Origin: Paracyclopina nana | Taxonomy: Eukaryota; Arthropoda; Copepoda; Cyclopoida; Cyclopettidae | NCBI GenBank assembly: GCA_019096065.1 | Contig: JAGUCH010000002.1 | Location: 2,492,501 to 2,556,500, forward strand | Length of the DNA: 64,000 bases | Direction: 5' to 3' | Shown: one piece after another, positions 1-62,908 of the stretch | Layout: each line of letters starts with the position of its first letter | Position numbering within the stretch: position 1 is the stretch's first letter | Notes under the pieces: generated by a model | Told to the model about the DNA's origin: nothing | Database searches by the model: none | The model's input: only the letters and a program-made list of their open reading frames with translations | Position numbers and translations under genes: made by a program

Positions 1-396
1 ATGCACATTAGCTCATGCCACAAGACTTCTGGTAGCAGGCCAGTGAAAAGAGTCAAACCATCCATTTGCCCCTATTGTGACAAGACATTCAGTGTTCCCA
101 ATAATTGCAAGGAGCATATTATGGTCAAGCATGAAAACATCACCCCTTTCAAATGTGAGGATTGTGGTAGAAACTTTGGCACCAGAACCAGGCTAAAGAA
201 TCACAGGAATAATGTGCACTCTAGAGTGAAATGTGAGGAGTGCAACCAGGATATCAGCAACAGGTTCATGCTGAAGAGACACAAAGCCATGGTCCACAGC
301 TCGATGCCAGATGATGTATTCAGATGTGATCATTGTCCTATGGTTTATACGCTTGAATATGCTTACAAGAATCACTTGTTGAAGCATCAGTCGTAA
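1..396 (+). CDS. u1: C2H2 zinc-finger protein, C-terminal part only (5' end outside window)
   Basis: This is the 3' end of an array unit. The reading frame is open at base 1, and the first residues (H-I-S-S-C-H) form the H-x4-H half of a finger whose cysteines lie upstream, so the ATG at base 1 is internal and not a start. Four complete fingers follow, at about residues 23-44, 52-73, 78-99 and 109-129. The third (C-x2-C-N-Q-D-I-S-N...L-K-R-H-K) is the penultimate finger typical of block u1-u5 and u8. Stop TAA ends at 396. A DNA-binding nuclear protein is expected from the family. Confidence 0.85.
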   Translation: MHISSCHKTSGSRPVKRVKPSICPYCDKTFSVPNNCKEHIMVKHENITPFKCEDCGRNFGTRTRLKNHRNNVHSRVKCEECNQDISNRFMLKRHKAMVHSSMPDDVFRCDHCPMVYTLEYAYKNHLLKHQS

Positions 397-429
397 ATTG
401 CCTCTAATACGTTTTCCACTTTCTTTCAG

Positions 430-480
430 AATGACTTGAATCAGCCTTGCGACAGCAAGAGTAAATTATATCCTGAACAT
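430..480 (+). other. Probable noncoding 5' leader exon of u2
   Basis: A pyrimidine-rich acceptor (ttctttcag, 421-429) lies 33 nt after the u1 stop. It is followed by 51 nt without a usable reading frame (ATG at 431 meets TGA after two codons), then a good donor gtaagt at 481. The next acceptor is ttgcag at 531-536, giving a 56-nt intron. Joining 480 to 537 creates ATGATG at the u2 start. The pattern suggests that u2 has an extra untranslated exon between the unit acceptor and the coding exon. It is inferred from splice signals only. Confidence 0.5.
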
Positions 481-537
481 GTAAGTTACTATCTTTGTAT
501 TCAGTCTTCAAATGTTATTTGAATTATTGTTTGCAGG

Positions 538-2076: not shown

Positions 2077-3552
2077 ATGTCAATATTGCCAGGTGACGAC
2101 ATGCCAAATCCATGGTTGGTGTTGGACATTCGAGATTTCAGCTTCTTTTGCTGCCCTGAGTGTGATTACAGGGCCAAGTCAGAGGAAGTTTTTGAAGACC
2201 ATGCCATTGGGAAGCATCCTCTGTCATTGACTTTCTTTGCCTCTGAAGCCAAAGCTGAGGGTGAAATTGATATCAAAATAGAGCCAGATGTCGACCTTTC
2301 CAGAAATGAGAGTCCAAAGCTTGAGGAGCATATGGCAGAGGAATTCAATCATGACATTGAATCTGAGCTAGACAACAGTGATGACTACACAAATTATAGA
2401 GAAGAGGGAGAAGACTCAACTTCAGAGAAATTCACTTGTCCCAAGTGTGATTATGCAGCAAATGGACTTCAAAGTCTTGGCATGCACCTCAATAAGATGC
2501 ATGGGAGAGTGAACAATCGATGGCAGTGTCCCAGCTGCGAATCCTCCTATCCAAACTCTTCCAAACTAATCCGGCACTTGGAAGCTGTTCACCTGAAGCT
2601 CAAAATTAAATGTAATCTCTGTGAGGCTGTGATGAGCAAAGGTAGCTTGAATCCCCACATGCTGAATGCTCACAAGGGCGACAGAATCAACAAGCCTTTT
2701 AAATGTGACCATTGCGATTTCTCGTCACATGCTCTCAAGTACCTGAAAGCGCATATTTACAAGTCCCATGATGTGGAGAAGCACAAGTTTCAATGTGACA
2801 AGTGTGATAAGAGATTCCCCTTTCCTCATATCCTCCAAGAGCACATTGAAATTGATCATGATGGGCTGAAAAGGTACATGTGTCATCGCTGTGGAAAGTA
2901 CTTCACCAGAAAGACAAATCTTGATGAACATGTGCTCAAGGAGATGTGTGAAGTCATTTCATCAGTCAAATGTGATGAGTGTGGAGAGACTTTTTCTGCC
3001 AAAAGATACTTAAAGATACATTGCAGAGCAGTGCATGGTGGACTGCCAGAATCCGAGATCACAAATCTGGAAGATCAAGTGATGTGTGATCAGTGCTCCA
3101 AAGTGTACCAATCAAAACAGAGCTTAAAGCTCCACATGAAGGCAGCCCACTCTGGCAAACATGCAGTTCCTCCAAAGAAAGCTAAAGTGAAGGCAGCAAG
3201 GAAATGTCCCCAGTGTGAAAAATGTTTCTTCACACCTAAAAGCCTGAGTGAGCACTTCAAGTCAAAGCACGAGAAGAACACACCCCACAAATGTGATCAC
3301 TGCCATAGAAGCTATGGCACAATGAGTATGCTGAGAAATCACACTCGCAATATGCATCAAAGAGTCAAGTGTGATGAGTGCAGCCAGGAAATTTGCAATA
3401 CTTTCATATTGAAGCGGCACAAGGCTACTGTGCACAAGACCAAGCCAGATGATGTGTACCATTGTGAATTTTGTCCCTTGTTCTTTAAAAGAGAGATATT
3501 CCTCAAAAGGCACCTAGAAAAGCATCACCCCCAAGAGTATGTTCCCAGCTAA
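2077..3552 (+). CDS. u3: cap-finger plus 12-finger C2H2 protein
   Basis: A 491-aa protein starting 36 nt after the u2 stop; the acceptor ttccag ends at 2075, one base before the ATG. The cap (N-P-W at 11-13, CPEC at about 26-29) is very close to that of u2. The linker contains I-K-I-E-P-D, a SUMO-type site, and is rich in Glu and Asp. Twelve fingers occupy about 118-488 and align one for one with u2 and u4, including the shortened third finger and a C2HC-like sixth finger ending E-M-C. It is probably a sequence-specific DNA-binding regulator. Confidence 0.9.
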   Translation: MSILPGDDMPNPWLVLDIRDFSFFCCPECDYRAKSEEVFEDHAIGKHPLSLTFFASEAKAEGEIDIKIEPDVDLSRNESPKLEEHMAEEFNHDIESELDNSDDYTNYREEGEDSTSEKFTCPKCDYAANGLQSLGMHLNKMHGRVNNRWQCPSCESSYPNSSKLIRHLEAVHLKLKIKCNLCEAVMSKGSLNPHMLNAHKGDRINKPFKCDHCDFSSHALKYLKAHIYKSHDVEKHKFQCDKCDKRFPFPHILQEHIEIDHDGLKRYMCHRCGKYFTRKTNLDEHVLKEMCEVISSVKCDECGETFSAKRYLKIHCRAVHGGLPESEITNLEDQVMCDQCSKVYQSKQSLKLHMKAAHSGKHAVPPKKAKVKAARKCPQCEKCFFTPKSLSEHFKSKHEKNTPHKCDHCHRSYGTMSMLRNHTRNMHQRVKCDECSQEICNTFILKRHKATVHKTKPDDVYHCEFCPLFFKREIFLKRHLEKHHPQEYVPS

Positions 3553-3576: not shown

Positions 3577-5127
3577 ATGGCTACTTTAAGTGTAGGAAGG
3601 AATCCTTGGTTGGTCCATGACATCAGTGATTTCAATTTCTTGTGTTGCCCTGAGTGTGACTATAGGGCCAGGTGTGAAGAGACTTTTGAGCATCATGCCA
3701 TTGGAAAGCACCCACTTGCTATCTATTTCTTCGCTGCAGAAGTGAAGGAACCCAAAGACTTGAACAATCGTACAAATGAATTAGATTTTTCTGAGTCAGA
3801 GCATATTACTGAGGCAATGAAAGATGAACAGGAGCACATACTAGAGGCAGAAAATGACAAAGAAGACGATAACTCAGAGGCCCAAGTTGATAATGAAGAG
3901 CAGCTTGAGAATGAAGGTGTGGAGGAAAGCATTGAACATGTTGGTGCCAAAGATTGTGATACAAATGACAGTGAATCATTACAATGTCCCAAGTGTGACC
4001 AATTTGTGATTGGATTAATAGAACTTGGTATGCACTTGAACAACGAGCATGTTAAAGTGAAAAACAAATGGCAGTGTCCTACTTGCTCTGTGGCATTTGG
4101 AACCTCTTCCAAAATGAAAAGGCATGTGGAGAGTGTACATCTCAGGATCCGAATTAAATGCAAGCTGTGTGATTCAAAAATGGCCAAAGACAGCATCAAA
4201 GACCACATGAGAAACTTTCACAATGGTGACAGAATCAATAAGCCGTTCAGGTGCAACCTTTGTGACTTTTCCTCTCACGCACTCAAGTATTTGAAAGCTC
4301 ACAAATACATCAAGCATGATTTTGAGAAGCACAAGTTTTGCTGTGATCAGTGTGAGGAAAAATTTGCGTTTCCCCATATGCTACGTGAGCACAAGGAGGT
4401 AAAGCATGAGGGAATCAAAAAGTTTTTGTGCGAAAATTGCGGCCTGAAATTTACAAATAAGTGGTGGCTTCATTTGCATCTTAATGGGCCATGTGGAGGC
4501 AACAAGGCACCCACAACTAAAAGGCAGAAGAAAGATCCCACCGGCGATGCTCCTCCTGCAGAAATTCAGTGTGATAAATGTCCTGATTCTTTTTCTGCGG
4601 AGAATTATTACAGGATCCACTATAAGCATATCCATGGTGAAAATCCACCCCCATTGTCAGATGACAGACGTGAACTGATGTGTGATCAATGTCCAAATGT
4701 TTACATAACTCAACAAGGGTTGTACTATCACATTCAAGCCTGCCACATCGAGGTACCAAGGAAGAGGAAAGTCACCCAGCGGATCAAGACTTGCCCACAT
4801 TGTGACAAGACCTTTTCCACTTTTCTGTGTTATAAAGAGCACATAGCTGCCAAACATGACATGTCAACTCCCCATAAATGTGACCAGTGCTCAAGAAGTT
4901 ATGGAACCAAAGTGAAGCTAAGGACTCACATAAGAAATGTGCACCAAAGGGTCAATTGTGATGAGTGCAATCAGGAAATTTGCAATGACTTCATGCTGAA
5001 GCGGCACAAAGCATCTGTGCACAACATCAAGCCAGAGAATGTCTTTCAATGTGAGCAGTGTCCTCTGTTTTACTGCCAGAAAAAAACTCTTGAAAATCAT
5101 GTCAACAAGATTCATTCCATGAAATGA
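3577..5127 (+). CDS. u4: cap-finger plus 12-finger C2H2 protein
   Basis: A 516-aa protein. Only 24 nt separate it from the u3 stop, and most of that is the pyrimidine tract and AG (3574-3575). N-P-W is at 9-11. The linker (about 50-132) is strongly acidic, with long Glu/Asp/Asn stretches, but unlike its neighbours it has no clear psi-K-x-E site. Twelve fingers follow, colinear with u3. The sixth (C-x2-C...G-P-C) ends in cysteine rather than histidine and is followed by a basic spacer of Lys and Arg. It is a probable nuclear DNA-binding protein. Confidence 0.9.
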   Translation: MATLSVGRNPWLVHDISDFNFLCCPECDYRARCEETFEHHAIGKHPLAIYFFAAEVKEPKDLNNRTNELDFSESEHITEAMKDEQEHILEAENDKEDDNSEAQVDNEEQLENEGVEESIEHVGAKDCDTNDSESLQCPKCDQFVIGLIELGMHLNNEHVKVKNKWQCPTCSVAFGTSSKMKRHVESVHLRIRIKCKLCDSKMAKDSIKDHMRNFHNGDRINKPFRCNLCDFSSHALKYLKAHKYIKHDFEKHKFCCDQCEEKFAFPHMLREHKEVKHEGIKKFLCENCGLKFTNKWWLHLHLNGPCGGNKAPTTKRQKKDPTGDAPPAEIQCDKCPDSFSAENYYRIHYKHIHGENPPPLSDDRRELMCDQCPNVYITQQGLYYHIQACHIEVPRKRKVTQRIKTCPHCDKTFSTFLCYKEHIAAKHDMSTPHKCDQCSRSYGTKVKLRTHIRNVHQRVNCDECNQEICNDFMLKRHKASVHNIKPENVFQCEQCPLFYCQKKTLENHVNKIHSMK

Positions 5128-5170: not shown

Positions 5171-6775
5171 ATGGGTGCCAATGGGGAGGAAAACCCATGG
5201 CTAGTGGATAACATAATGGATTTCAACTTCTTCTGTTGTCCAGAGTGTGACTATCAAGCCAAAACTGAATGCATTTTTGAAAAACATGCAGTTGACATGC
5301 ACCCATTATCAAGGGTGCTATTCTCTGTCAAAAATGAAGAGTCAGCAGGAGTGAAAGTGGAAGCTGAGGAAGAGAACTCATTCAATGAAGCTGATGAAGG
5401 GCCAATTCTGGAGGAAAATTACATCAACTGTCAAAAGTGTGATGAGTCCCTCAATGGATTAGTGGAGTTGGGTGCTCACTTGAACTCTGTCCATGGTAAA
5501 GTGAATGGAAGATACCAGTGCCCCTCATGCACCAAGACTCACCCTTCAAGCACTAAGCTGAGGATTCATATTGAAACTGTACATTTGAAGAGAAAGACCA
5601 AATGCCACCTATGTAACAGCATGGTGGCCTTCCATGGCCTCAGAAATCACATGAGAGTTTCGCATGATGGCGATAGGATCAACAAGCCCTACAAATGTGA
5701 AGAGTGTGACTTTTCCTCTCATGCTGATAAATACTTGAAAGCTCACATCCTCAATTGCCATGACAAGGACAAGCACAGCCATGCTTGTGACCAATGTGAT
5801 AAGAAATTTGCCTACCCTCATCTATTGAGTGAGCACAAGGAAACCGTGCATGAGGGAATCAAGAGGTTCATGTGTGACAAATGTGGTAAAGGATTTCCAA
5901 AAAGGCTGAAGGCACTTTTTATTGAGCATGTGCAGCAGGCTTCATGTCACTTGCCAAAGAAGTGGCCTTTGTCATCTGATGGCTCCAACTTGATTCAATG
6001 TAAATCTTGTGACTTGACCTTCACAGCTACTTGCAATTATATCCAGCATTACAAGTACATTCATGGCAGTGCTCCTCCATCAACTGAGAGATTCATTTGT
6101 GAAAAGTGCGGCAAAGGTTTTTCTAAGAAGCAAAAAGCCCAATTTGACGAGCATGTCTCAAGTGACAGGTGTGGTGGCGTTTCTGACCAGCCCATCATCA
6201 CTTGTGACGTTTGCAGGGAAACATTCAGTGGCACCCAGTACTTCATTCAGCATTACAGATACATTCATGGAACTCTGCCTCCTATGTTCATGAACAAAGA
6301 GCAATTCCTCTGTGAGCTGTGTCCCAATGTGTACTTTTCAAAATTGAGCCTTAAATCCCATGTGAGGTCTATTCATGGTGGCAAGGCTCGTGTAAGGACT
6401 CACAGGGAGAGAAAGTGTCCTCACTGCGACAAAACTTTTCTCAGCGTGGCCAGCTATCAAGAGCACATCAAATCCAAGCATGAAAACATCACTCCCTTCA
6501 AGTGTGATCAGTGTCATCGAAGCTTTGGCACCAGATCCAGGTTTAAGACCCACAAAAACAATGTTCACTCCAGGGTGAAATGTGATGAGTGCAACCTTGA
6601 AATATGCAATCCGTTCATTTTGAAGAGGCACAAAGCTGCTGTGCATGGAATTCAACCTTCCAGTGTCTACCATTGTGATTATTGCCCTTTGTTTTTCAAC
6701 CTGCTCAAAACCAAAGAAAGACATGTGCTCAAGATTCATAGTGCAAACAATCAGTCATCAGCCTCTTTAGCATGA
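5171..6775 (+). CDS. u5: cap-finger plus 14-finger C2H2 protein
   Basis: A 534-aa protein. I chose ATG 5171 because the acceptor ttgcag ends at 5164, 6 nt upstream; longer frames would start before the acceptor. The cap has N-P-W at about 9-11, and the linker carries V-K-V-E. There are fourteen fingers, two more than u2-u4, because a two-finger module (C-G-K-G-F plus the Y-I-Q-H-Y-K/R-Y-I-H finger) is present twice, at about 5872-6066 and 6097-6270. The stop TGA (6773-6775) overlaps an ATG at 6772 that is in frame with u6. Confidence 0.9.
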   Translation: MGANGEENPWLVDNIMDFNFFCCPECDYQAKTECIFEKHAVDMHPLSRVLFSVKNEESAGVKVEAEEENSFNEADEGPILEENYINCQKCDESLNGLVELGAHLNSVHGKVNGRYQCPSCTKTHPSSTKLRIHIETVHLKRKTKCHLCNSMVAFHGLRNHMRVSHDGDRINKPYKCEECDFSSHADKYLKAHILNCHDKDKHSHACDQCDKKFAYPHLLSEHKETVHEGIKRFMCDKCGKGFPKRLKALFIEHVQQASCHLPKKWPLSSDGSNLIQCKSCDLTFTATCNYIQHYKYIHGSAPPSTERFICEKCGKGFSKKQKAQFDEHVSSDRCGGVSDQPIITCDVCRETFSGTQYFIQHYRYIHGTLPPMFMNKEQFLCELCPNVYFSKLSLKSHVRSIHGGKARVRTHRERKCPHCDKTFLSVASYQEHIKSKHENITPFKCDQCHRSFGTRSRFKTHKNNVHSRVKCDECNLEICNPFILKRHKAAVHGIQPSSVYHCDYCPLFFNLLKTKERHVLKIHSANNQSSASLA

Positions 6776-6807: not shown

Positions 6808-8241
6808 ATGGACAATCCTTGGTTGGTGGAAAGCCTTCAACCTTTCACTTTTCTGTGCTGTCCAGAGTGTGAATTTAGATCTCATGAGAGTGTGGAGTTC
6901 AAATGGCATTCCCTAGCTAACCACCCAAGATCTGCTGACTTTTTCAGCAAATACAGCCTACAAGAAGAGCAAGATAAATTGACTTCCTCCCTGATTGAAG
7001 CTAAGCTTGAGGTAGCTACTGATCCAACTTCCCTTGGCTTTCCAAATCCCAGTAGTGAGCCAAGTGAGCTAATCAAGCCTCAAATCAAAGTGATCAAAAA
7101 GTATGCAAAGTCCAATGTGCCTAGTAGTGCTATGAAACCTTGCTACTATTGTGGTGAGAGGTTTCCAACCAAAAATGACCTCAAAACCCACAAGAAATTC
7201 AATCACAGTGACTCTGAGGGCAACTTATTGGCTCCCAAGTGCTTTTTGTGTGACTCACCATTTGAGACTCATGATGAGCTGAAGAGGCATTTTGAAACTG
7301 TGCATATGCAGGGCATCTTTTATCCCTGCCCAGAATGTGGCATTATGTTCTCTTGGAAGGGTTTGAGTGCTCACATGACAATCAGCCATGGGCCTAAAGA
7401 TGCGAAAACATTCCATTGTGACATCTGCTCATTCTCCACTCACACCAAAGCTCTACTAGGAAGGCACATAGCTCACAAGCATGAGGAGAAAAAGTTCTTT
7501 TGTGACAAGTGCGCGAGAGGCTTCACCTTTGAGTCATACTTGAAGAAGCATGATTGCACCAAGTCCCTGGTGCCAAGTGGCATCACTCAGTGTGATAGAT
7601 GTGAAGTCAAAGTGTGGACAATGGAGGAGGCTTCTGCTCATTACCAAACAGCCCATGGGCTGGAGGTGCCAAGTCATTTTCAACTTGCCATGGGTAAAAG
7701 CATCATCAAAACAGGCCCACCAAAGCCTTGTCCGAAATGCCAGGAGTCTTTTGGAACCCTCAAAGGTCTCCAGACTCACTACTCAAGAATCCACAAGGGG
7801 ATGCTGCCAGAGTATGAAAATAGGCCCAGTTATATGTGTCAGATTTGCGCCAAGGTCTTTTTGACACCTCGCTCGCTCAAAAGGCACCAGTCCATCAAGC
7901 ATTTGAATTTACCTGTGAAAAACAGAAGGGTTGATAACAAGTGTCCCCACTGTGACAAAGTCTTCAAGGACAGAGGCAATTTGAATGAACATGTGAAATC
8001 CAAGCATGAATTTGATACTCCTTTCAAGTGTGATTTGTGCCCCAAAGAGTTCGGCTTTGGAAGCAATTTGAGAGACCACAAAAAGAATGTGCATGAAAGA
8101 GTGAGATGTGAAATCTGCTATAAGGACAACTCGAATATTTACGTGTATAGAACGCACATGGCCAAAGTCCATGGAATGCAACCTGTTGACAATTCATATT
8201 CAACCAATTTACAACAGCAGCAGCAACTGCCCAACCAGTGA
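6808..8241 (+). CDS. u6: cap-finger plus 11-finger C2H2 protein with Gln-rich tail
   Basis: A 477-aa protein. The start is ATG 6808, immediately after the acceptor AG (6806-6807) and 32 nt after the u5 stop. The in-frame ATG at 6772 lies upstream of the acceptor and is less likely to be used. The cap is almost at the N terminus (N-P-W at 3-5). Eleven fingers follow the linker; the last lacks the CNQE-type loop of its neighbours and has Y-K-D-N-S-N instead. The protein ends with a run of five glutamines (N-L-Q-Q-Q-Q-Q-L-P-N-Q). Its closest relative is u7. Confidence 0.9.
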   Translation: MDNPWLVESLQPFTFLCCPECEFRSHESVEFKWHSLANHPRSADFFSKYSLQEEQDKLTSSLIEAKLEVATDPTSLGFPNPSSEPSELIKPQIKVIKKYAKSNVPSSAMKPCYYCGERFPTKNDLKTHKKFNHSDSEGNLLAPKCFLCDSPFETHDELKRHFETVHMQGIFYPCPECGIMFSWKGLSAHMTISHGPKDAKTFHCDICSFSTHTKALLGRHIAHKHEEKKFFCDKCARGFTFESYLKKHDCTKSLVPSGITQCDRCEVKVWTMEEASAHYQTAHGLEVPSHFQLAMGKSIIKTGPPKPCPKCQESFGTLKGLQTHYSRIHKGMLPEYENRPSYMCQICAKVFLTPRSLKRHQSIKHLNLPVKNRRVDNKCPHCDKVFKDRGNLNEHVKSKHEFDTPFKCDLCPKEFGFGSNLRDHKKNVHERVRCEICYKDNSNIYVYRTHMAKVHGMQPVDNSYSTNLQQQQQLPNQ

Positions 8242-8269: not shown

Positions 8270-9788
8270 ATGAGCTTTGTTGTCGAGGCCAATCCTTGGC
8301 TGGTGGAAAGCCTCCAGGATTTCTCATACTTTTGTTGTCCTGAGTGCGTCTACAGAAGTCAAGGAGAGTATGAGTTTCAAGCACACGCCATCCAAAATCA
8401 CCCCAAGGTAAAACATAAAATAAAAATAATTTCTTTAAAAACAATGGCATTTTTATTTTTAGGCTCAGGAATTTTTCAAGCCTTCCAATGAGGTGAAGGA
8501 GGAGGAGAATGAAGAGTTTAGCACAGAAGGTTTTGATGCTGAAATGAAATCAGAAGCTTATGACAGCAATGAAGAAGATGAAGACGAGGAGGGAGAGGAA
8601 GAAGAAGAGGAGCCGAGCTCAAGTTCAGATTTCAGTCGAGCAAAGCAGGAATACAAGTGTATTTTCTGCTCAGAGGCTTTCAAAAGAAAATACATGCTTA
8701 AGAGCCACCAGGAAAGCGAACACACCGATGAATTCGGACGACTGCCTGATGTCAAATGTGACCAGTGTGACAAATTCTTTGCTTCTCAGCAAATGCTGAA
8801 AGCCCACAAATCCAGAGTTCACACAAGGAACACAAAGTGCCCAGAGTGTTCTGAGTTGTTTGCCAAGAATGAAATCAAGCAACACTTGTACAGTGCTCAT
8901 CCAGACAAGGACTTTCTGTACCACAAATGTGAGCTGTGCGATTTCGCAACCTATTCCAAAGAGTGCCTCAAAGCACATGTCTCCTACAAACATCAGGCCA
9001 AGAAATACATTTGTGAAAAGTGCTCAATGGCTTTTCGTTTCCCCTACTTTTTGAAGCAACATGACTGTGATGGAACCTTGTCTCCCACAGTGGCCACAAA
9101 ATGTGACTTGTGTGACACCAAATTCCTGTCGAGAGAAGAAGCCACGGAACATTACCAAAATGTGCATCAACAGGAGCTTCCAGACTACTTTTCCATGAAA
9201 AGGAGAGGAGCAAGAAAAAACGACCCACAACCTTGCCCCGAATGCAATGAAATGTTCAGCGGGCTGGTGTATTTGCACCAACACTACACTACAGCCCATG
9301 GGGGCGTTCTGCCCTCTATGCAAGGAAGGCTGAGCTTCATGTGTGAATTTTGCCCCAAGGTGTATTTCAACAAGAGCCGGCTCAAAGTTCACCAGAGGAC
9401 GGCTCACTTGGGCTTTCCAAGGAGAAAAAGGTCCTACACTACAAAACAGAAATGCCCTCATTGTGACAAAGTGCTGAGCAGAAATGCTTTCAACGAACAC
9501 GTCAAGTCGAAGCATGAGCTCAATACTCCTTACAAGTGTGATTTGTGCACAGCCTGTTTTGGCACCCGGGGCAGGCTCCTGTTGCACAAAAAAGACGTGC
9601 ATGAGAGGGTCAAGTGTGATATTTGTGAGAAGGAGATCAGCAGCATTTTCAACTTGAGGAAGCACAAGGCCAATGTGCATGGCATTGTGCCCGAGAGGAC
9701 CAAGTGTCAGTACTGCCCTCAAGTTTTTGTCTGCAAAATTGCCTGTGACAAGCACATAGATAAACACCATCCAGAGGCTAAACTATGA
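8270..9788 (+). CDS. u7: cap-finger plus 12-finger C2H2 protein, two exons
   Basis: The coding exons are 8270-8407 and 8463-9788 (487 aa). The 55-nt intron is phase 0, directly after the cap's H-P-K, and rejoins to A-Q-E-F-F, which matches the unspliced paralogues (H-P-N-A-K-D-F-F in u8). The linker begins with V-K-E-E and becomes a strongly acidic run of Glu/Asp and then serines. Twelve fingers cover roughly residues 110-435. The fifth ends H-D-C (C2HC). The ATG lies 5 nt after the acceptor at 8263-8264 and 28 nt after the u6 stop. Confidence 0.88.
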
Positions 9789-13293: not shown

Positions 13294-14235
13294 ATGGCGG
13301 AGGAGAAGAATCCTTGGTGCTTGGACTCTGTCAATGACTTTTTGTTCTTCTGTTGCATAGAATGCAACTTTAGAGACAAAAGTGAGCAGGCTTTTGTGAG
13401 CCATGCCACAAACCATCATCCCAAGTCAAAGGAAATGTTCAACACCAAAGAGAAGGAGGAAGAACCTATTGACAATGAAGAAGTAGAAGAAGAAAGGACA
13501 GGCTACCATGAAGTCATAAGTGAAGTGGTTGGCTCAGTGAGATTCAAGTGTTGCTTTTGTGAGTACAAAAGTAAGTATAAGCAGGCTGTGACTCACCATG
13601 CTGAGAGAGTGCATCTCAAAAAGAGGAACTTCACTTGTGATCAATGCCAGAAGAAATTCCACCAAGAATGTGACCTGAAAAAGCACATGGCTGCTGTGCA
13701 TGAAAGGCAGAGAAGGTTTGTCTGTGAGACTTGTGGATTTCCTTGCGTGTCTAAGCAAAGCTTGGAAAAACATACTAAAAGTAAGCATGCCAAGAAGATA
13801 CTTGAGTGTCACCACTGCCCCTACAGAGAGACTTCTTCCAAAAGGTTTTACAATCACTACAGCACAGTACATCATGCAAAAGTGGCCACTTGCCTGCTAC
13901 AAGTGACTTGCAAGCTTTGCTCAAAATCCTTTGAAAATGACCTCATGCTGGGACTTCATGTAGAGTTTGACCACCAAGCACCCAAATTTTGGTGTGAAAA
14001 GTGTGGCAAGCAGTTTTCCACGAAGAAAGGTCTTCATTTTCATGTGTCAGGAGTGCACGAGGGCGTCAAACCATTTGCCTGTCCAACTTGTGGCAAGACG
14101 TTTCCTTCCAAAGGAAATATGGACACTCACATCAAAATTGCTCACACCAAAACTGGTTCTGTCAAGTGCAAAATTTGCGGCCAAGGCAGTGCGAATATAT
14201 TTTATGCTAGGAAACATATGAAGGAAACCCACTGA
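13294..14235 (+). CDS. u10: short cap-finger plus 8-finger C2H2 protein
   Basis: A 313-aa protein, one of the smallest in the array. The acceptor ends at 13281, only 14 nt after the u9 stop, so nearly the whole gap is pyrimidine tract. I place the start at ATG 13294 (N-P-W at 6-8) rather than the in-frame ATG 13264, which precedes the acceptor. The cap reads C-C-I-E-C instead of C-C-P-E-C. A short Glu-rich linker is followed by eight fingers to the C terminus. Its order of fingers matches only u11, its immediate neighbour. Confidence 0.88.
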   Translation: MAEEKNPWCLDSVNDFLFFCCIECNFRDKSEQAFVSHATNHHPKSKEMFNTKEKEEEPIDNEEVEEERTGYHEVISEVVGSVRFKCCFCEYKSKYKQAVTHHAERVHLKKRNFTCDQCQKKFHQECDLKKHMAAVHERQRRFVCETCGFPCVSKQSLEKHTKSKHAKKILECHHCPYRETSSKRFYNHYSTVHHAKVATCLLQVTCKLCSKSFENDLMLGLHVEFDHQAPKFWCEKCGKQFSTKKGLHFHVSGVHEGVKPFACPTCGKTFPSKGNMDTHIKIAHTKTGSVKCKICGQGSANIFYARKHMKETH

Positions 14236-53674: not shown

Positions 53675-55318
53675 ATGAGGAGGTCAATGAGAGGGAAAAA
53701 ACCAGTGGTGATCTTTGACCCATCGAGTGCAAAGCCTTTGCAGGAGGAAAACCATCATGAAGATTTTGATGCCTTGGTCAACAATCCATGGAATGTGACC
53801 AATTTTGAGGCTTTTATGCTGTATGAGTGTCCTCAATGTGCTCACAAATCCAAAGATCTCAAAGTTTTTGCTACCCATGCAGCTTCAAACCATTCTCAAG
53901 TAAGTTCCTATATATGCTTTTTGAGTAAACTATTTGAAAACGCTCCTTTTCTGCAGGCAAGAGAATTTTTGCACAGAATGGCAAACAATGGTGTTCTTCC
54001 CTTGGACTCAGTGGCTGTGCAAATTCTCAATGATCAAGGTGTTGAGGAAGAAGCAAATGAAGATACATCTGAAGTGGCAAAGAAACCAAAAGAAGCTCAA
54101 ACTGACTCTTTTCAATGCTATGTTTGTGGCCTTGAAAGGGCAAACAAACAAGAAGTTATTGATCATTGTTCAACTCACTTTGAAAATGTCAAATCTTCCA
54201 TGTATGGATTGCCCAGGGAATTTCAGTGTGGAGAGTGCAAATTAATGTTCAAAACTCCTGGCTCCCTAGGACTTCATGTTTGTGGCCAACTTCCACCAAG
54301 ATGGACTGGCAATTATTCTGAAGCAAAAAAGTGCCCAGATTGTGGGAAAGTATTCAAGAAGAGGTATGACTTGCTGGGACACATAGCCAAAGTTCACACC
54401 AAGTCAAAAAATTTCCAATGTGGCGAATGTGATTACAAAGCATCAGTGCCATTTCTTTTGCTGAAGCATCAACGAAGAAAACATGGCGAGCATCAGAGAA
54501 AAAATCACTTGTGTCATGACTGTGGATCCATGTTCACTGAACGGACTCATTTAATGTCCCACATCAGATATGTGTGCAAATTGGTGAAAGAAGAGGCTTT
54601 CTGCTATACATGTGGCTTGACTCACAGAACAAAATCAGGCATGGCCAAGCATTTGCAGGAGGCTCACAATAAGAAAGTTAATCGTGAGGAAAGCAGTGAT
54701 CCCTCAAAGCCTTTTAGATGTGGAGCTTGCGTTGAAGAATTTGTGAATTCTGATCAGCTTCAACAGCATCTGAGATCAACTCATCAGGATTTAAAGCCAC
54801 AGAACAGTGAGTCTGGTGGATCTGCAAAGGCCAAAGTGAAATACCAATATGCTTGCACAGAGTGTGGCAAACTTGTGTCGAACAAATATTCCTTAGAGTA
54901 CCACATTAACAAAGTGCACGAACTGGTTAAACCATATCCATGTACTCAGTGTCATGAAGCCTTTTTCGACTCTCAATCACTGAAGAAACACGAGGACAGG
55001 CACAATGGTAAACACACTTATACGTGTCGAGAGTGCCACAAAAACTTTGCGTCTCAAAGTTTGTGCCAAAGACATGTGAAATCCATGCACGAAAGGAATG
55101 AGGTGTATGTGTGTGAGACTTGTGGATTCAAGACATTTCATGCCAATTCATTGACTACACACATCCAGCAAGTGCATGAAAAGTTGAGGCCTCACAAGTG
55201 TGGGCATTGTGATGAGGCTTTCTTCTACAAGCGAGACTTGGAAAAGCATTGCACAAAAGTTCACCAAATCGAAACTACTACCATAACTTATGCTGTTATT
55301 GAGGAGCATGTTGCATAA
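53675..55318 (+). CDS. u34: cap-finger plus 12-finger C2H2 protein, two exons
   Basis: The exons are 53675-53899 and 53957-55318 (528 aa). The 57-nt phase-0 intron follows the cap (H-S-Q) and has no in-frame stop, so an unspliced read-through is also open. It has a good donor gtaagt and acceptor ctgcag and sits at the recurrent cap-intron position. A basic leader (M-R-R-S-M-R-G-K-K) precedes N-P-W at 37-39. The cap is diverged (E-C-P-Q-C). Twelve fingers are colinear with u33; the fifth ends V-C. Confidence 0.86.
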   Translation: MRRSMRGKKPVVIFDPSSAKPLQEENHHEDFDALVNNPWNVTNFEAFMLYECPQCAHKSKDLKVFATHAASNHSQVSSYICFLSKLFENAPFLQAREFLHRMANNGVLPLDSVAVQILNDQGVEEEANEDTSEVAKKPKEAQTDSFQCYVCGLERANKQEVIDHCSTHFENVKSSMYGLPREFQCGECKLMFKTPGSLGLHVCGQLPPRWTGNYSEAKKCPDCGKVFKKRYDLLGHIAKVHTKSKNFQCGECDYKASVPFLLLKHQRRKHGEHQRKNHLCHDCGSMFTERTHLMSHIRYVCKLVKEEAFCYTCGLTHRTKSGMAKHLQEAHNKKVNREESSDPSKPFRCGACVEEFVNSDQLQQHLRSTHQDLKPQNSESGGSAKAKVKYQYACTECGKLVSNKYSLEYHINKVHELVKPYPCTQCHEAFFDSQSLKKHEDRHNGKHTYTCRECHKNFASQSLCQRHVKSMHERNEVYVCETCGFKTFHANSLTTHIQQVHEKLRPHKCGHCDEAFFYKRDLEKHCTKVHQIETTTITYAVIEEHVA

Positions 55319-55339: not shown

Positions 55340-56979
55340 ATGGAGACAGACTACTTGGCTGATATTTCAAATTTGGTGCCACCTGACCTACCAAAAGCTG
55401 AAGAGGATGAGGACTTTAAGGCTGTCTTGAGCAATTTTACTCCCAACCCTTGGACAGTGGCGTCTCTGGAGGACTTTTTGTTTTACTGTTGTCCTGAGTG
55501 CCCACATAAATGCAGGAGCTCAATTTCTTTTACCAATCATGCTGTGAAGAATCATCCCAAGGCTCACGAAAAGTTCGGAAATATTTACCTCCCTGAAGAG
55601 CATGATGGCATTCACTACACTGAGGATGAGCATGATGATGATCTCAAGCATAAGACACTGGGCGAAGGTGTCAAGCTAGAAGTGCAATGGGAGCCAGGTT
55701 GTGATTTTGAAGATACAGACCAAGAGGAGGACAGTGGTGGTGATGAGGATGACAGCAAAGACTTTTTGCACATTGACAAAGATCCCAATAGTGACTTCCA
55801 GTGCTACCATTGTGGCCAAATGATCCATAGCTTGGAAAAGGTGAAAGAGCATATAGAAAGTGTGCACAAGTGTTCTCCCATGAGATTTGGTGAGAAGAGG
55901 CCTTATAATTGTGTCCACTGTGGAGCTGCCTTTCAAAAGTCTAAAACTCTTTTGCACCACGTGTGCACCAACTTGGTCACCAATCGAGACACCAATAATG
56001 GGGAGCCTCTCACATGTGGCAAGTGTGACCAGAGTTTCCCCTCCAAAAAGTCCATGGCCTCACATCTGCTCACAGTTCACTCGGATGACAAGAATTTTGG
56101 CTGTCCTCAGTGTGAGTACAAGGCTAAAAGCCAATTGCTGATAACCAAGCATGTGCGAAGGCTGCACAAAAAGGAGAGAAAGCACACGTGCAATTTGTGC
56201 GGGAAAAGCTTTTTTGAGAAGTGGAACCTCACAGATCACATAGTGGCTGTGCACCAAAAGAAGAAGCCCTATGTGTGCGACAAGTGTGGCAAGGCTTTCA
56301 GCCAGAAATCAGGCCTGTCTTCCCATAACACCTTTCAGCATCCGGACCCAACCAAAGTCTTGCCCACCAAAAAGAAGAGAGAGTGGAAAACCGAGCCTAC
56401 ACCTTGCGAAAGGTGTGGAAAGATACTCATGTCAAAATACTCATTGGAAAAGCACATTTTACACACTCATGAAAATGTGAGGCCTTTCAATTGTGAAACC
56501 TGTGGCAAAACTTTCAAATCCAACAGCAACCTCAAAGAGCACATTTCTCAAGTAAGACAACAAAAAAAAAACACTTTGTTCAAGTACCTAATTTCTTTTT
56601 CTTTTTCTAGGTGCATCACAACAAGCGGCCATTCAACTGTAATTTGTGTGACTTTGGGTCTTCTCACAAATCTAGGCTGGAAGTTCATATCAAGACAGTG
56701 CATGAAGCACCACAGGACTACCCATGTGAACATTGCCCTCATGTTTGCCATAAAAAGAAAGAGCTGCAGTCACACATCAAGACTGTCCACGGCAAGTTCA
56801 AGCAGCACAAGTGTGACTTTTGTGACAGTGCCTTTTACAGGAGGAGAGACAAGGAAAAGCATCTCTTAAAATCTCACAGCATTGACAGTGCAACAAAGCC
56901 CACCACCATAGAAAATGATCAAATGCACAATAGCACCAATACTCAGCAACAGCAACAGCCTTTGCAGATTTTGCAATAA
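55340..56979 (+). CDS. u35: cap-finger plus 11-finger C2H2 protein, two exons
   Basis: The exons are 55340-56551 and 56611-56979 (526 aa). The 59-nt phase-0 intron splits finger 8 between I-S-Q and V-H; skipping it gives a shifted, non-finger tail. A 35-residue acidic leader precedes N-P-W. The linker has V-K-L-E followed by a Glu/Asp/Ser stretch, a strong acidic-type SUMO context. Eleven fingers are close to the classic TGEKP type in spacing. The tail is Gln-rich (Q-Q-Q-Q-Q-P-L-Q-I-L-Q). The gap to u34 is 21 nt. Confidence 0.88.
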
Positions 56980-57000: not shown

Positions 57001-58735
57001 ATGATGTCCAATGCCGACTCCATCACCCTACATGGGCATGAAGTGTCCTCAGTGGAAATGCATGCCATTTCCATGGATCCAGCCACAACCAGCTACATTT
57101 TAGTGGCTCAGCAGCCCAGTTTAGAGGCTCAGCCCAACGTAGAGCAGCTGATTACCAATCCTGGAGTCAAAACTGAGATCTTCGATAATGATGATATTCA
57201 AGACTTTGCTAATGCTACCTCAATTGAAGACTTTTTGTGGTACTGCTGCCCCAAGTGTGATTTTAGGTGCAACACTAGCCCCAATTTTGTCCAACATGTG
57301 GCTGAGAGGCATCCGAAAGCCAAACCAGTCCTAGAAGAACTTACTTCTAACAAGAAAAAGCCTCAGCTCAAGGATGCCCATAACATAGATCCAACCTTAG
57401 ATGATGTGGAAGAATTCATCAATGATGAGCTACCAGATCATGAACTGAACAATACCAATAGCTCCAATGAGGACGAAGAGGAGGAGGAAGAAGAGGAGGA
57501 AGATGAACTGTATGAGTCTGCAGCAGCAGTGCCCAACAAAAGAAGTAGGAATAGTAGGTCTTCCATCAAGTTGGAAGATATTGATGAAGATGACGAGAGC
57601 AAAGAGTTCCAATGCTACTACTGTGGAGCCATGATAGCCTCCTTGAAAAATGTCAAGACTCACATGAAAGAAAAGCACAGGAGGTTCCACTCCAAAATGT
57701 TTGGCTATCCAAGGCCACTGAATTGCCAGAATTGTGGTGCCACTTTTGACAATGAGAAGACCAAGTCCAATCATATGTGCACCAATGTGGACTTTCCAGT
57801 GAACAAAGATGCCTCCGGCAATTTTGAGTGCAAGCAATGTGGGAAGAAGTTTGACAGGAGGAAAGGCTACATTTACCACATTGTCAACACTCATCGCGCA
57901 GAACGCAATTTTGCCTGTGATGAATGCACTTACAAGGCCAAGAATCAGATGCTCCTCACCAGGCACATCAACAGGTTGCATAAGCAAGTGAAGCCTTACT
58001 TGTGCCCACATTGTGGCAAAGCATTTTATGACAGCTGGAATATGAAGAATCATGTGAAAAGGCTGCATCTTGGTGAGAGGCTGAAGAAGCCAGCTCAGGA
58101 TGATGACAAGCCCTTGGAATTGCTCCAATGTGAGCACTGTGGCAAAGACTACTCTTCACCCTCAGCTCTGGCCACCCATGTCAAAGTGCAGCATGAAAAT
58201 CTCACCTACAACTGTGATAGGTGTGGGAAAATGTTCAGGTACCATGATTTTAAGCAAAAAAAGAAACCCTCATGGCTAAGCTCAATTTTTTTTCAGGTCT
58301 AAAGACTGGAGGGACAAACATGTGCTGATTGTGCATGATGGACAAAAGCCATTTGTGTGTGATGCCTGTGGCAAGGCTTTTGGCATGAAACAGGGCCTCA
58401 AGGAGCACTACATAATTGTGCATGAGAAGAATGGCAAATTGAAGTGTGAGCAGTGCAATTTCACTGCGCCCAACAATTCCAGGCTGAGGTTTCATGTGCA
58501 GACTGTGCACGAGAAAAAGTCCACCTTCAACTGCAGCCAGTGCTCATTTGTGTGCCATAGGAAAGATGGCCTTAAAGCACACATAGATGCCGTCCATGAG
58601 AAGAAAAGGCCGCACAAGTGTGGCTATTGTGATGGGGCCTTTTTCTTGCGTAGAGACAAAGAGAGGCATTTGCTCAAGTTCCACAACATTGATGTGAAAA
58701 AAGGAGGTGCAGCAGAATACACCTTGCAACAGTAG
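57001..58735 (+). CDS. u36: diverged-cap C2H2 protein with 11 fingers, two exons
   Basis: The exons are 57001-58238 and 58297-58735 (558 aa), with a 58-nt phase-2 intron inside finger 7 that rejoins F-R to S-K-D-W-R-D-K-H. A 70-residue N-terminal extension precedes the cap, in which N-P-W is replaced by N-A-T and C-P-E-C by C-P-K-C; the rest (I-E-D-F-L-W-Y-C) is conserved. SUMO-type sites are V-K-T-E and I-K-L-E, around a long Glu run. The ATG directly follows the acceptor. AATAAA (58737-58742) follows the stop by 2 nt. Confidence 0.87.
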
Positions 58736-58841: not shown

Positions 58842-59795
58842 ATGATGAAACTGGAGCCTCAAGAGTTCACTGTGGACCCATGGGAGTGCAAAAAGTTGGA
58901 GGATTTCATGTGCTACCAGTGCCCAGAGTGCCACTTTTTATTTCAAGACATTGACACTTTCCTCATTCACTGTCATGAGCATCCCAATGCCAAAAAGTTC
59001 ATAGATAGCTTAGAAGAGCCTTGTGAGTCTTCCACCACCGTTATAAAGTATGAAGACAATGGTGCTTCTCATCTCCAATTTAGTGGAGAAGACGAGCCCT
59101 ATGTGGAGCCCACAGCTTTTGTGGATTGCAGCTTAAATGAGGACACCAGTGTTTTGGCACCAATGCAATCTGCCAAGAAGATGGATCTTCCACTTGCATC
59201 TTCTTCCAAAAAATACAACTATGACCATTCCATCAGCAGTGGTAAATCCACATCTTCTGCATATGCGCCAAGTAAGCATTGCAGTTGGGAGCAATCAGTG
59301 GAAACCACTTGGGAGGAATTCAAGGAATTTGTCTGCCACAAGCCTGACTACAACTCCAATGACATCATTGCTTTCCTCAACCACAAATACAACACCACTC
59401 AAATTGCTTTCAGCACAGTGGTGAACATCAAGGCTCGGCTGTCTGTGGCTTATAACAGGGAGACTGGCAGATCTTTCCCGGATGACTTCCACGAAGCTGT
59501 GCAGTATTGCAAAAACATGTCGTCCAAGCCGAATTATAGCAGGAACTACTTCAAGAAAAAGGACAGGGACTGGAAAAAGTTCCTCGAACATGTGGGCAAA
59601 GGCCTGCGTTTCAAGGAGAGAGATCTTGTCAAATATTTTGACGAGCTCAAAAATGAAAGAAGACTCTCTGGCAGCTCACTGAGGCTGCACTTGGCCGCCA
59701 TAGTCACTGGATACTCCAAAGACACCAAGAGAAGCTTCAAGGATGACTTTCCCACCATCTCAGATTACGTGAAAGACATTGGGAGAGACTCGTGA
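58842..59795 (+). CDS. u37: cap-finger protein without C2H2 array; two tandem helical domains
   Basis: A 317-aa protein starting Met-Met, 10 nt after the acceptor at 58830-58831. The cap is recognisable (D-P-W at 12-14, Q-C-P-E-C, H-C-H-E-H-P) and SUMO-type sites are M-K-L-E-P and I-K-Y-E. No further zinc fingers occur. Instead there are two copies, about 70 residues each (157-226 and 244-313), of a W-x2-F...helix...Y...T-(G/K)-R-S-F-x-D-D-F...Y-(C/V)-K domain. Their spacing recalls the SAM-like core-binding domain of tyrosine recombinases; that assignment is tentative, and no catalytic domain is present. Confidence 0.85.
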   Translation: MMKLEPQEFTVDPWECKKLEDFMCYQCPECHFLFQDIDTFLIHCHEHPNAKKFIDSLEEPCESSTTVIKYEDNGASHLQFSGEDEPYVEPTAFVDCSLNEDTSVLAPMQSAKKMDLPLASSSKKYNYDHSISSGKSTSSAYAPSKHCSWEQSVETTWEEFKEFVCHKPDYNSNDIIAFLNHKYNTTQIAFSTVVNIKARLSVAYNRETGRSFPDDFHEAVQYCKNMSSKPNYSRNYFKKKDRDWKKFLEHVGKGLRFKERDLVKYFDELKNERRLSGSSLRLHLAAIVTGYSKDTKRSFKDDFPTISDYVKDIGRDS

Positions 59796-59907
59796 AAATT
59801 CCCTACTTGTTCTGCGTTGCTTAAATCATGCTTATAGCAAAGATCTAAAGCATTTTTGTGACACTCAATAATTTTTGGCCCTTTCTTTCAGGCTGCAAAA
59901 AGTCGTG

Positions 59908-62900
59908 ATGATGGAGGAGAATCCTTGGGAGGTGAGCAACTTAGAGTGCTTTTTGTTCTACTGCTGCCCAGAGTGTGACTACCGATGTCAAGACATAAAC
60001 AATTTCGAAAGCCACGCTGGCCAAGAGCATCCAATGGCCATCAAGGCCATTGACAGGATGAAAGTGGTGCTTGGCCTTGTGCAGGGAGAAAAGGGACACC
60101 ATTTTTGCAAGCTGTGTGGCAAATACTTTACGAGCAGCCAACGCTGGAGTTCTCACATGAAGGGTGTGCATGGTGATCCAAGGCCTTATAAATGCGACCA
60201 ATGCAAGGCTGGGTTCACCCAATTGGCTGATGTGCAAAGGCATACTGACAGAGTGCACAAAAATGAGAGACCCTTCAAGTGTGATGTCTGTGATTCCCAA
60301 TTCTCAAGAAAATATGAGCTGACTCAACACCACAAAAACGTCCATCCCGAAAGCCAAGAAGGTGCTTAAAATTAGCTTTTAGTGTGAGTGTTCAAATTCA
60401 TTTTTGTTTTTCATTACAGAAAATGAAGGGGAAAGCAGAATGGAGGCTTTCGAGTTCAAGTGTGATCCTTGTGGAATAATTTTCTTCACGAAAACTCACC
60501 TGAACAAACATAATGTCAAAGTGCATAGCATGACTTTGTCATTTCAATGCCATATTTGTCAGAAGCAATTGGGCTGCAAAAATGACCTGAAAAGGCATGT
60601 GGAGTCGGTGCACGAAAAGAAAAAGCCGTACATGTGCACCAAGTGTTTGGCCACTTTTTCGAGGAAATCCTACTGCAAATCTCACCTAAAAATGGTGCAC
60701 AGTGAGGAGGATGTCGACCTCATCATCGACACCAGTGCTAATGAAGATGTGGAAGAGAGTGAGCCAGTGGCAAAAGAAACTACCTCCAGCAATATCAATG
60801 TGGAAGACATTGAAGCTTTTCAAAAAGCTCTCTTCAAATGTTTGTCTTGCAAGGCAATTTTCATTGATGAGCATCATTGGAACAGCCATCAGAGTCTGGC
60901 TCATAAAGATGATAGCAATGTGAGCTGTGAGAGTTGTGACAAAAAATTTGCTTCAGTCTATGAATTGACCAGGCATGTCAACGAGATACATAAACGAGCC
61001 AAAGTTTTCTTTTGCTCATTATGCGACTCCAAATTCACGAGGAAGTACAATTGCAGAGATCATTTGAAAAAGAAACATTCAACATCAGACGAGAGCCTGA
61101 TAAAAGAGAGTGCTGTAGTACAATCGGATACTGCTGAAAATGAGTCCAATCCTGATGAACCTCAGAGTGTATTATTGGTGCCTCAAATTGATAATGATGG
61201 ATCCATGAATCAAGAAAATGTACCACTGATTCGAGAAAATGTATCCATGAATCTTGAAAATGTATCCATTAATCAAGAAAATGTATCCTTGAGACAGGAA
61301 AATGTATCCTTGTATCAAGAAAATGTATCTGTCATTCACGAAGAATCATCAATTATTCACGAAAATGTATCCATGACTCAAGAGGATGCATCAATAATTC
61401 AAGAAAATGTATCCATGACTCGACAGGATGCGTCAATAATTCAAGAAAATGTATCCATGGTTCAAGAAGATGTATCCAATACAACCGGAGAGACAATTGA
61501 AACAAACTTCATCCTTGAAGTGATTCCAAGTGACTCCATCAAAGATGTGATTGTTGTCACTGAGCATCAGCCCAATCTGAGGTGTGACAAGTGTGACTTT
61601 TCGTTCAAATCTCCCTACTTTATGTACCAGCACTTTGAGCAGGTGCATGGCATTGTATCAGAGATTGAGCAAGACACGCCCAACCAATGCTTGATTTGCT
61701 CAGCTCCTTTCACCACTCCAGAAAGCCTTGCACATCATGTCAAGTATGTGCACGAGAAGGCACCAAAGCCTTTCTTATGTGACAAATGCGACAAGTCTTT
61801 CAGGTCCAGGTGTAACCTGGATCGTCACATCAAATTTGCTCATGAAGGTATCAAAGAGTTTCCTTGTGACAGCTGTGACTACAACGCGTCCACACCTCAG
61901 AATTTGGCTCAGCACAAAAGCTCAGTGCATCAAGGGCTCCGCAAGTTCAAATGTATCCAATGTGGGTCGGCTTTCACGCAAAAAACGCACCTGCGAATAC
62001 ATATTCAAAACGTGCATGAGAAGACCAAACACTTTGTCTGTCATCTCTGTGGAAAGGGATTTGCAGATAAACCAAAGTAAACAATTTCATAATTTTTTTG
62101 AATGCTTCCTAATTTGTATTAGTAACGTAGGCTTCAAAATCATTTGGACACAATGCACACCGAGCCAGCTCAATGTGATATCTGCCTGGCCAAATTCTCG
62201 TCGAAAATTTCGCTGTATCGGCATCACATGTCCAGCCACAAGGATTTCCCACTCTCCATGGATACAACCCAGTTTGAGTTTTGTGACCAGTGCGGGATGC
62301 CTTGCTTGAACAAGATTGCTCTCAAAAAGCATCTTTACATGCACAAAAACAAGAAGAAATACACAAAGAGGCCATCTACCAAGCAAACAAAAGGTACAAT
62401 TAGAATTTTCCTATTTATTTATAATTGTATTTTGCTTATTTTTGCCATAGTGGAATTGTATCCATGTGCTACTTGCCAAAAGCCATTTCGTAGCAAGGCT
62501 GGATTGGATCAACATGACAGAGTGATACACCAAAAAATCAAGGCGTTCGCTTGCACAGTATGTAATAAGTCTTTTGGCTACAAGAAAACCTTGGAATGTC
62601 ACATTGCAGTTGTCCATGAAGATTCTGGGGCATTTCCGTGTGACCAGTGTGGTAAAAAGTTTGGCGTGAAATCTGCTCAGCAACAGCACATCAGCATTGT
62701 CCACAACAAGGAGGAACGCTACAAGTGTGACATTTGCGACAAAACGTTTGCGCGCAAGGATTACTTTCAAATACATATGCGCTCAGTGCACGAGCGAGTC
62801 AAGCCGTATGTGTGCGACCACTGTGGCAGCTCCTATGGTCAAATGGGAGATATGTACAGACATGTGCGAAAAGTGCATGGGGTCGAACCCATCAAAGTGA

Positions 62901-62908
62901 GAGACTGA
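59908..62908 (+). CDS. u38: cap-finger plus 22-finger C2H2 protein, four exons, last array unit
   Basis: The proposed exons are 59908-60361, 60420-62076, 62131-62393 and 62451-62908 (943 aa). N-P-W is at 5-7, and the linker is very short. The first intron has a weak donor (gtgctt); unspliced, the frame stops at 60369 and a capless second cistron could start at ATG 60440. Intron 2 rejoins A-D-K-P-K to L-Q-N-H, completing a finger. Intron 3 (57 nt) is stop-free and phase 1. Fingers come in groups of 9, 8 and 5; groups 1 and 2 are separated by a 7-residue repeat region. Confidence 0.75.
61205..61477 (+). repeat. 21-bp tandem coding repeat in u38 (13 copies)
   Basis: Thirteen in-frame 21-nt units run from ATG 61205 to 61477, with a core CAAGAAAATGTATCC, encoding variants of M-x-Q-E-N-V-S. 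Some copies have E-D-A-S or E-E-S-S, and a pair of units (I-I-Q-E-N-V-S plus M-T-x-x-D-A-S) is itself repeated, showing expansion by steps. The encoded segment is a polar heptad repeat between two finger groups and could be a flexible spacer. Confidence 0.92.

Follow-up and report, generated by a model that had tools for sequence, protein, structure and literature searches.

An array of 52 zinc-finger genes with apparent orphan splice acceptors, possibly a single polycistronic transcription unit, in Paracyclopina nana

The 64,000-nucleotide (nt) stretch analysed here (the window; positions 2,492,501 to 2,556,500 of contig JAGUCH010000002.1 of Paracyclopina nana) lies in a head-to-tail array of zinc-finger genes. 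Fetching of the flanks and enumeration of the units showed that the array comprises 52 units and 51 gaps and extends over 90.6 kb, with every unit on the + strand. The reading that we favour, with confidence just past an even balance, is that the array forms one polycistronic transcription unit and that a leader would be spliced onto its units, with trans addition as the likeliest route.

Window position 1 corresponds to C2:2492501 (window C2:2492501-2556500), and L numbers denote separately fetched loci. The array starts at the ATG of unit 1 (L012:2279, equal to C2:2464779), 27.7 kb 5′ of the window, and ends with unit 52 at window position 62908 (C2:2555408). The portion inside the window consists of units 15-52, that is 38 units, the first of them partial, and 37 gaps. 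A first-pass annotation of the window had counted 38 units on one strand, which agrees with what we find there; its picture of a 38-unit array beginning within the window was not borne out.

C2H2 motifs occur 381 times on the + strand of the window and four times on the − strand, where all four are interrupted by stop codons. Among six units submitted to Pfam, five scored above the family cut-off for C2H2 fingers; the sixth was unit 51, described below. An N-terminal finger starting with an NPWxVxxxxxFxxxCCPEC-type motif opens 50 of the 52 units, units 28 and 50 being the ones without it. Genome-wide searches, which covered 92 Mb in 10 contigs, found 40 matches to a degenerate DNA pattern for the F/Y-CCPEC part, all 40 inside the array and all 40 on its strand; the pattern misses the 12 array units that do not have the exact motif, and similarly diverged copies elsewhere would escape it. 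As recognised by this pattern, the zinc-finger family is confined to the array within the genome. Not every unit is a single exon: open reading frame (ORF) breaks indicated internal introns in 14 of the 52 units, the remaining 38 being open as single exons. A frame-keeping search with generic donor weighting yielded sixteen putative cis introns of 54-554 nt within units, two of which are doubtful (sites 26549 in unit 32 and 32109 in unit 36).

All 51 gaps contain a pyrimidine-rich tract followed by YAG. The median acceptor score was 11.2, by a simple, self-made and untrained scoring scheme whose script picks the best-scoring AG of each gap, which favours high scores. The acceptor reads CAG in 48 and TAG in 4 of the 52 cases, unit 1 included. 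The distance from stop to ATG has a median of 40 nt (range 19-380; 26 of the 51 gaps measure 19-40 nt), that from stop to AG a median of 32 nt (14-237) and that from AG to ATG a median of 6 nt (0-348). The best acceptor is no more than 28 nt from the ATG in 45 of the 51 gaps and stands 0-2 nt before it in 18; the AG-ATG distances are in mixed phase (0, 1, 2, 4, 5, 6 nt and so on). The first-pass annotation had given the 37 window gaps as 20-212 nt, which is correct (median 38 nt), and its examples of gaps consisting of little beyond an acceptor (24, 20 and 21 nt for u3-u4, u30-u31 and u34-u35 in its numbering) were found as described. It had also placed an AG 0-28 nt before each ATG, or 62 nt before that of its u18. 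This holds for 33 of the 37 window gaps and for u18, which is our unit 32, but not for units 16, 22 and 31, where the best acceptor is 107-166 nt away and a lower-scoring AG is also present near the ATG.

In units 6, 11, 16, 22 and 31 a strong acceptor lies 26-56 nt past the previous stop and the unit's own ATG 81-348 nt further downstream; unit 32 is the sixth unit with a distant acceptor. Because these five units keep the acceptor near the previous stop despite their distant ATG, the gap acceptor is associated with the end of the preceding unit no less than with the beginning of its own. Downstream of the best acceptor, the ATG met first is the in-frame start in 38 of 51 cases. Units 5, 23, 33, 36-38 and 40 have an out-of-frame ATG 2-3 nt past the acceptor (e.g. 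AG/GCATG...ATG), ahead of the in-frame start.

The possibility of chance AGs was rejected by shuffle and junction controls. An acceptor scoring at least 6 within 45 nt of the stop was present in 37 of the 51 gaps, compared with a mean of 12.5 and a maximum of 23 in 500 shuffles. The + strand of the array has 33 junctions made of an ORF stop, an acceptor and an ORF beginning with ATG, its − strand none. A background of 228 kb, made up of the other fetched loci with the near-identical 5S loci L036-L048 left out, has two; judged from their positions, these two are read as cis introns. Under a rule that excludes local donors and is limited to ORFs of at least 60 codons on either side, the counts were 25 on the + strand of the array, one on the − strand and none in the 228 kb, with none in the reversed array and one in the reversed background. 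In seven close pairs of units the gap sequences match at 14-20 of 40 positions and all still have the acceptor; an acceptor kept in gaps so diverged is what function would leave.

A good donor 100-30 nt before the gap acceptor was present in 3 of the 51 gaps versus 17.4% of 2000 random array windows. The yardstick was the lower quartile of the sixteen putative cis introns, the threshold being set by one of the doubtful ones; with both doubtful introns dropped the outcome was the same (2 of 51 versus 14.1%). The gap acceptors, with their median of 11.2, are no weaker than the cis acceptors (2.6-11.2), the two sets having been picked by different rules. Because local donors are scarcer than chance, the gap sites appear to be orphan acceptors; if used, they would be joined to a donor far off or on another RNA. 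A polyprotein or a giant multi-exon gene was rejected on the depletion of donors before the gaps and on the stop codon in each unit.

AATAAA or ATTAAA occurs within 147 nt past the stop in 3 of the 51 units compared with 10 of 19 ends of zinc-finger ORFs elsewhere in the genome (Fisher p 4e-5), a comparison weakened by the fact that in the array this stretch is mostly coding sequence of the next unit, and that the control set may include ORF ends at which no gene ends. Between 40 nt before the stop and the AG such hexamers were found in 5 of the 51 units, the shuffle expectation being 9.1. The 400 nt past the last unit contain neither AATAAA nor ATTAAA; the variant AATATA is present there.

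The CpG observed/expected ratio is 0.28 over the 90.6 kb of the array, with TpG at 1.63, and 1.02 in the kilobase before it. In a scan that began 30 kb 5′ of the window and ended at window position 66000, the sole strong CpG-rich element (up to 1.87) was located at −28500 to −27750 relative to the window (L012:1500-2250). Use of CpG as a promoter mark relies on the usual invertebrate pattern of gene-body methylation, which we infer to apply here. The controls were starts of a second large C2H2 family on contig C5, at about 6.88-7.36 Mb (L019-L026). The start-proximal CpG maximum was 0.71-1.69 at 18 such starts, 1.53 at unit 1, and 0.65 or lower at 50 of the 51 starts of units 2-52. Pooled over the last 150 nt before the start, the ratio was 1.05 in the controls and 0.27 in units 2-52, a contrast weakened by the fact that these 150 nt are mostly coding sequence of the previous unit. 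Taken together, this is indirect evidence for one promoter serving 52 units. The first-pass claim that there are no unit-specific promoters thus gains support from the one strong promoter-like CpG element and from gaps that look like orphan acceptors without local donors.

The second C2H2 family starts with MNKCDICGQ and is spread over both strands with long spacers. Its starts have raised CpG and a recurring AATGCGGAAAATAG element upstream, and one stretch recurs with a period of 2.8 kb.

A putative non-coding leader exon, ending in AAA/GTAAGT with its donor at L012:2060, lies within the strong CpG-rich element on the same strand as the array. Downstream of this donor an acceptor immediately precedes the ATG of unit 1. 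The donor scores 5.7 and is the only one above 4 in the ~580 nt before the first acceptor; the sequence of the putative exon is single-copy in the genome.

In the mechanism that we propose, the 90.6-kb array would be read as one transcription unit from the single CpG-rich promoter 5′ of unit 1. Units 2-52 would have no promoter of their own, each being a complete gene behind an orphan 3′ splice site, usually a few dozen nt past the previous stop. The long pre-mRNA would be cut into single mRNAs by addition of a 5′ leader in trans at each acceptor, most likely from a spliced-leader RNA, and 3′ end formation of the upstream unit would be coupled to the next acceptor rather than to AAUAAA. We favour trans addition because the acceptor follows the previous stop, because acceptor strength does not change with position in the array (Spearman −0.04, p 0.80), and because the hexamers are rare. 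The first-pass annotation had offered two readings, trans-splicing of a polycistron and cis-splicing of one gene with many terminal exons. The single transcription unit implied by both is supported by indirect evidence; of the two readings, trans is the more probable.

Besides the limits on the hexamer and CpG comparisons, several observations weigh against the proposed mechanism. The putative leader exon offers a good donor in cis, upstream of the array. An AG scoring at least 6 within 60 nt upstream of the ATG was found at 15 of 22 starts of the contig-5 family; since an AG before the ATG is in itself not special in this genome, we put the weight on donors, gaps, hexamers and CpG. The start CpG of unit 41 (0.91) falls within the control range. 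Inside the array, CpG is also raised at 18700-19300 (in the long intron of unit 27, up to 1.27) and at 39350-39900 (around introns of unit 40, up to 1.0), two stretches which could be secondary promoters splitting the array into three; a further stretch, 37250-37550, barely reaches 0.9. By the rule that gave 25 operon-like junctions in the array, the 228 kb from elsewhere, a small sample, have none, and so give no sign of operons as a general habit of this genome. Finally, patterns of calanoid and siphonostomatoid copepod leaders had no match in the genome with up to 3 mismatches, and the calanoid hairpin core had three exact matches, none in a sequence resembling a leader gene.

The leaders tried were known calanoid, siphonostomatoid and nematode ones. 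Nematode SL1 gave no match, and as its control was also matchless, this result is uninformative. Reading of three of the 20 fetched 5S loci (L029, L031 and L036) revealed no obvious embedded spliced-leader gene. Among seven U1 and nine U2 small nuclear RNA genes, the upstream sequences of seven and eight, respectively, were read by eye and shared no more than a weak element (YTCAA) near −60, insufficient for finding a leader RNA in the genome. Calanoid copepods are described as using spliced-leader trans-splicing, and in the excerpted text of the same source the leaders tested were not found in cyclopoid or harpacticoid data (PMC4664967). An amphipod genome paper, as excerpted, lists spliced leaders trimmed from reads (PMC5111886). 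The 5S ribosomal RNA array at C1:913544-939931 (L036) has a period of ~470 bases, and each unit in the locus read also carries a diverged second 5S copy; the 5S sequence contains a primer published for copepods.

The explanation that comes next is a single gene with 52 terminal exons, each complete and alternative to the others, in which the L012 leader (donor 2060) is cis-spliced to one of the 52 acceptors and each pre-mRNA gives one protein. We regard it as a tentative possibility of real weight. It accords with the single promoter, with a single-copy leader exon that holds the best donor ahead of the first acceptor, and with the failure of known spliced leaders to match; as excerpted, PMC4528330 also counts 130 Drosophila genes annotated with a promoter and 5′ non-coding exons common to a neighbour. 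Set against this, splicing would need to bypass as many as 51 strong acceptors, which would be hard, and their strength shows no gradient. Nor does cis-splicing account for acceptors close to the previous stop in units whose ATG is 81-348 nt off. Alternative terminal exons would, moreover, need a poly(A) signal after each unit, and canonical hexamers, the only forms counted, follow 3 of 51.

One promoter might command a library of 52 DNA-binding proteins, with the leader-acceptor join setting which protein a transcript or cell makes; we consider this rather unlikely. Some units share an intron just after the N-terminal finger (HPK/HPx; sites 8408, 29729, 30718, 34918 and 43478), as do units 32 and 36 by eye, and many units are without it. 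Among units with this intron, exon 1 of one could in principle join exon 2 of another.

Improbable in our view is a scheme in which one pre-mRNA of the locus donates the local leader in trans to another, in the manner of Drosophila mod(mdg4), while polycistronic precursors arise from internal promoters, for which 18.7-19.3 and 39.4-39.9 kb are candidates. The two internal CpG-rich stretches would suit it, and mod(mdg4) has five clusters of such precursors according to the excerpt of PMC4528330. These stretches, located within or next to introns, are, however, weak (maxima 1.27 and 1.0), and each unit of the array has its own start codon, nearly all with their own N-terminal NPW finger. A locus of the mod(mdg4)/lola type proper was rejected: the units have no coding N-terminus in common, and the AG-ATG distances are in mixed phase. 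The introns of unit 27 (18573-19126) and unit 40 (about 39600-40146) are unusually long, with the CpG-rich stretches in or beside them.

No more probable is a conventional cluster of tandem genes, transcribed independently from small promoters in the preceding coding sequence, where the AGs would be acceptors of short 5′ untranslated region (5′UTR) introns or initiator-like elements. The AGs before the contig-5 starts (15 of 22) speak for it. The start CpG of 50 of the 51 downstream units is below the range of the 18 controls, the donors that short 5′UTR introns need are depleted, and in 18 of the 51 gaps transcription starting at the AG would leave almost no 5′UTR. Uncut polycistronic mRNAs translated by reinitiation or internal initiation, with useless acceptors, are very improbable: they would fit the 26 gaps of 19-40 nt and have precedents in Drosophila, mostly dicistronic in the excerpted text of PMC4528330, yet they leave unexplained why 51 of 51 gaps have an acceptor when gaps of those seven close pairs agree at no more than 14-20 of 40 positions.

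The units have diverged. Among the 38 single-exon units the best relative is 24-69% identical at the protein level (unit 51 had no match), and this identity makes an assembly artefact unlikely; the best relative is the next-rank neighbour in 19 of 37. The ratio of non-synonymous to synonymous divergence (dN/dS) could be estimated in five of 12 chosen close pairs, three of them among units 43-45, and was 0.13-0.19 at dS 1.2-1.6; in the other seven dS was saturated and gave no ratio. The ratios point to purifying selection in the five estimable pairs.

The window opens with the 3′ part of unit 15 (1-396; start ~1.1 kb before the window), and all units that follow are likewise on the + strand. 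Unit 16 (538-2040) has a putative 5′UTR exon from the acceptor ending at 429, followed by a small intron. Next are units 17 (2077-3552; C2H2 by Pfam), 18 (3577-5127), 19 (5171-6775) and 20 (6808-8241), the last with its ATG immediately after CAG. Unit 21 (8270-9788) has two exons separated by an intron from 8408 to 8462 or 8468. The start of unit 22 (9970-11667; C2H2 by Pfam) was set after a TTCTAG acceptor, 9952 being an alternative start, and a putative 5′UTR exon runs from the acceptor ending at 9844. Units 23 (11738-13267), 24 (13294-14235) and 25 (14276-15490; C2H2 by Pfam) precede unit 26 (15575-17357), which has two exons, and unit 27 (17396-19564), which has three and includes the long intron with its CpG-rich stretch. 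Unit 28 (19642-21090) is the diverged one of the two without the NPW motif.

Units 29 (21120-22718) and 30 (22749-24476) are followed by unit 31 (24671-26371), whose acceptor at 24504 is close to the previous stop, and by unit 32 (26466-28228), with two exons and uncertain intron ends. Beyond unit 33 (28301-29476), two exons each were read in units 34 (29600-30538), 35 (30568-32033) and 36 (32071-33453; intron ends uncertain) and, after unit 37 (33482-34735), in units 38 (34771-36321; intron about 34918-34971) and 39 (36404-38254; intron about 37587-37643). Unit 40 (38289-40658) has several exons, unit 41 (40685-43204) has C2H2 fingers by Pfam, and unit 42 (43334-45026) has three exons. The run then continues through units 43 (45137-46756), 44 (46969-48624), 45 (48645-50267), 46 (50294-52057), 47 (52081-53631) and 48 (53675-55318) to the two-exon units 49 (55340-56979) and 50 (57001-58735; no NPW motif). 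Unit 51 occupies 58842-59795, and unit 52, the last (59908-62908), was read as a single multi-exon gene.

Unit 51 keeps the NPW-type finger, and a tyrosine-recombinase N-terminal SAM-like domain (PF13495, E 6.6e-7) replaces the finger array, as though a domain from a mobile element had been taken up. Rfam detected no family in the window or in L009-L015, and ARAGORN no transfer RNA in the window. From ~8 kb past the array, L015-L018 (window ~71-95 kb) contain near-identical 8.3-kb tandem copies with ORFs of up to 658 amino acids, at least three of them in the ORF list. LNR (Notch repeat) domains are scattered in the genome, with at least 38 matches at E≤0.001 among the 150 of 437 candidates that were scored. 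Outside these 38 matches, LNR- and kelch-like ORFs were recognised by eye 33-38 kb beyond the array (L018). The LNR set is reminiscent of the LNR proteins reported for the copepod Oithona nana (PMC8301441). Together with the copepod primer in the 5S sequence, it would suit a small crustacean such as a copepod; a COX1 search gave no match.

How does the array compare with known systems? As far as the motif can be traced, a whole transcription-factor-like family exists here only as one polycistron-like array. Animal operons are known as short runs of mostly unrelated genes, and on the proposed reading the array would far exceed any operon-like single-family array known to us from an animal. No report of a comparable array was recognised in the open-licence literature by titles and abstract starts, which is not proof of its absence in print. 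Closest in anatomy are the spliced-leader operons of the tunicates Oikopleura dioica and Ciona intestinalis, with head-to-tail genes and very short gaps; there, a leader added to each downstream gene resolves the transcript. For the intercistronic distance the excerpted SLOPPR results give medians of 31 bp (60-bp cut-off) and 57 bp (default) in O. dioica and of 1 bp in Ciona, whose operons reach seven genes (PMC7986045). Genes of O. dioica operons are of loosely related function, as excerpted from PMC11067885. Tunicate operons hold a few genes, whereas the array described here has 52 of one family, and no known spliced leader was found in its genome.

Long one-strand arrays are also found in the polycistronic units of trypanosomatids and dinoflagellates, in which pyrimidine tract-AG acceptors are coupled to hexamer-free 3′ end formation. 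The dinoflagellate Polarella is reported to have tandem single-exon genes (PMC7245778). These organisms are protists, whereas our array stands in an animal-like genome, with cis introns within units and a putative CpG-marked promoter. Mammalian C2H2-ZNF clusters have likewise grown by local duplication. Their tandem genes have promoters of their own, of which there is little sign in 51 of our units.

In Drosophila mod(mdg4) and lola, one locus makes many zinc-finger proteins by means of many alternative 3′ parts, and a BTB coding N-terminus is common to all. The mod(mdg4) locus trans-splices polycistronic precursors, as the excerpt of PMC4528330 has it. Here, in contrast to the shared coding N-terminus of these loci, each unit has a complete ORF with its own ATG, opening in 50 of 52 with the NPW-type finger. 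The Drosophila genes with a common promoter and 5′ non-coding exon, 130 in number, have a leader with a donor ahead of complete coding units, as in our array. Exon sharing is described there for two genes (PMC4528330, as excerpted), and the 52 units would be the same plan scaled up.

On the single-promoter reading the array would be an example of a zinc-finger repertoire that arose and persisted with no promoters belonging to it, and how donor-less acceptors are served could be tested cleanly here. A spliced leader, if true, would add one more lineage to those using operons, with a very long polycistron. A local leader, if true, would mean splicing-based choice among 52 complete proteins: a choice of transcription factor on a scale like that of Dscam exon choice, with whole proteins as the options.

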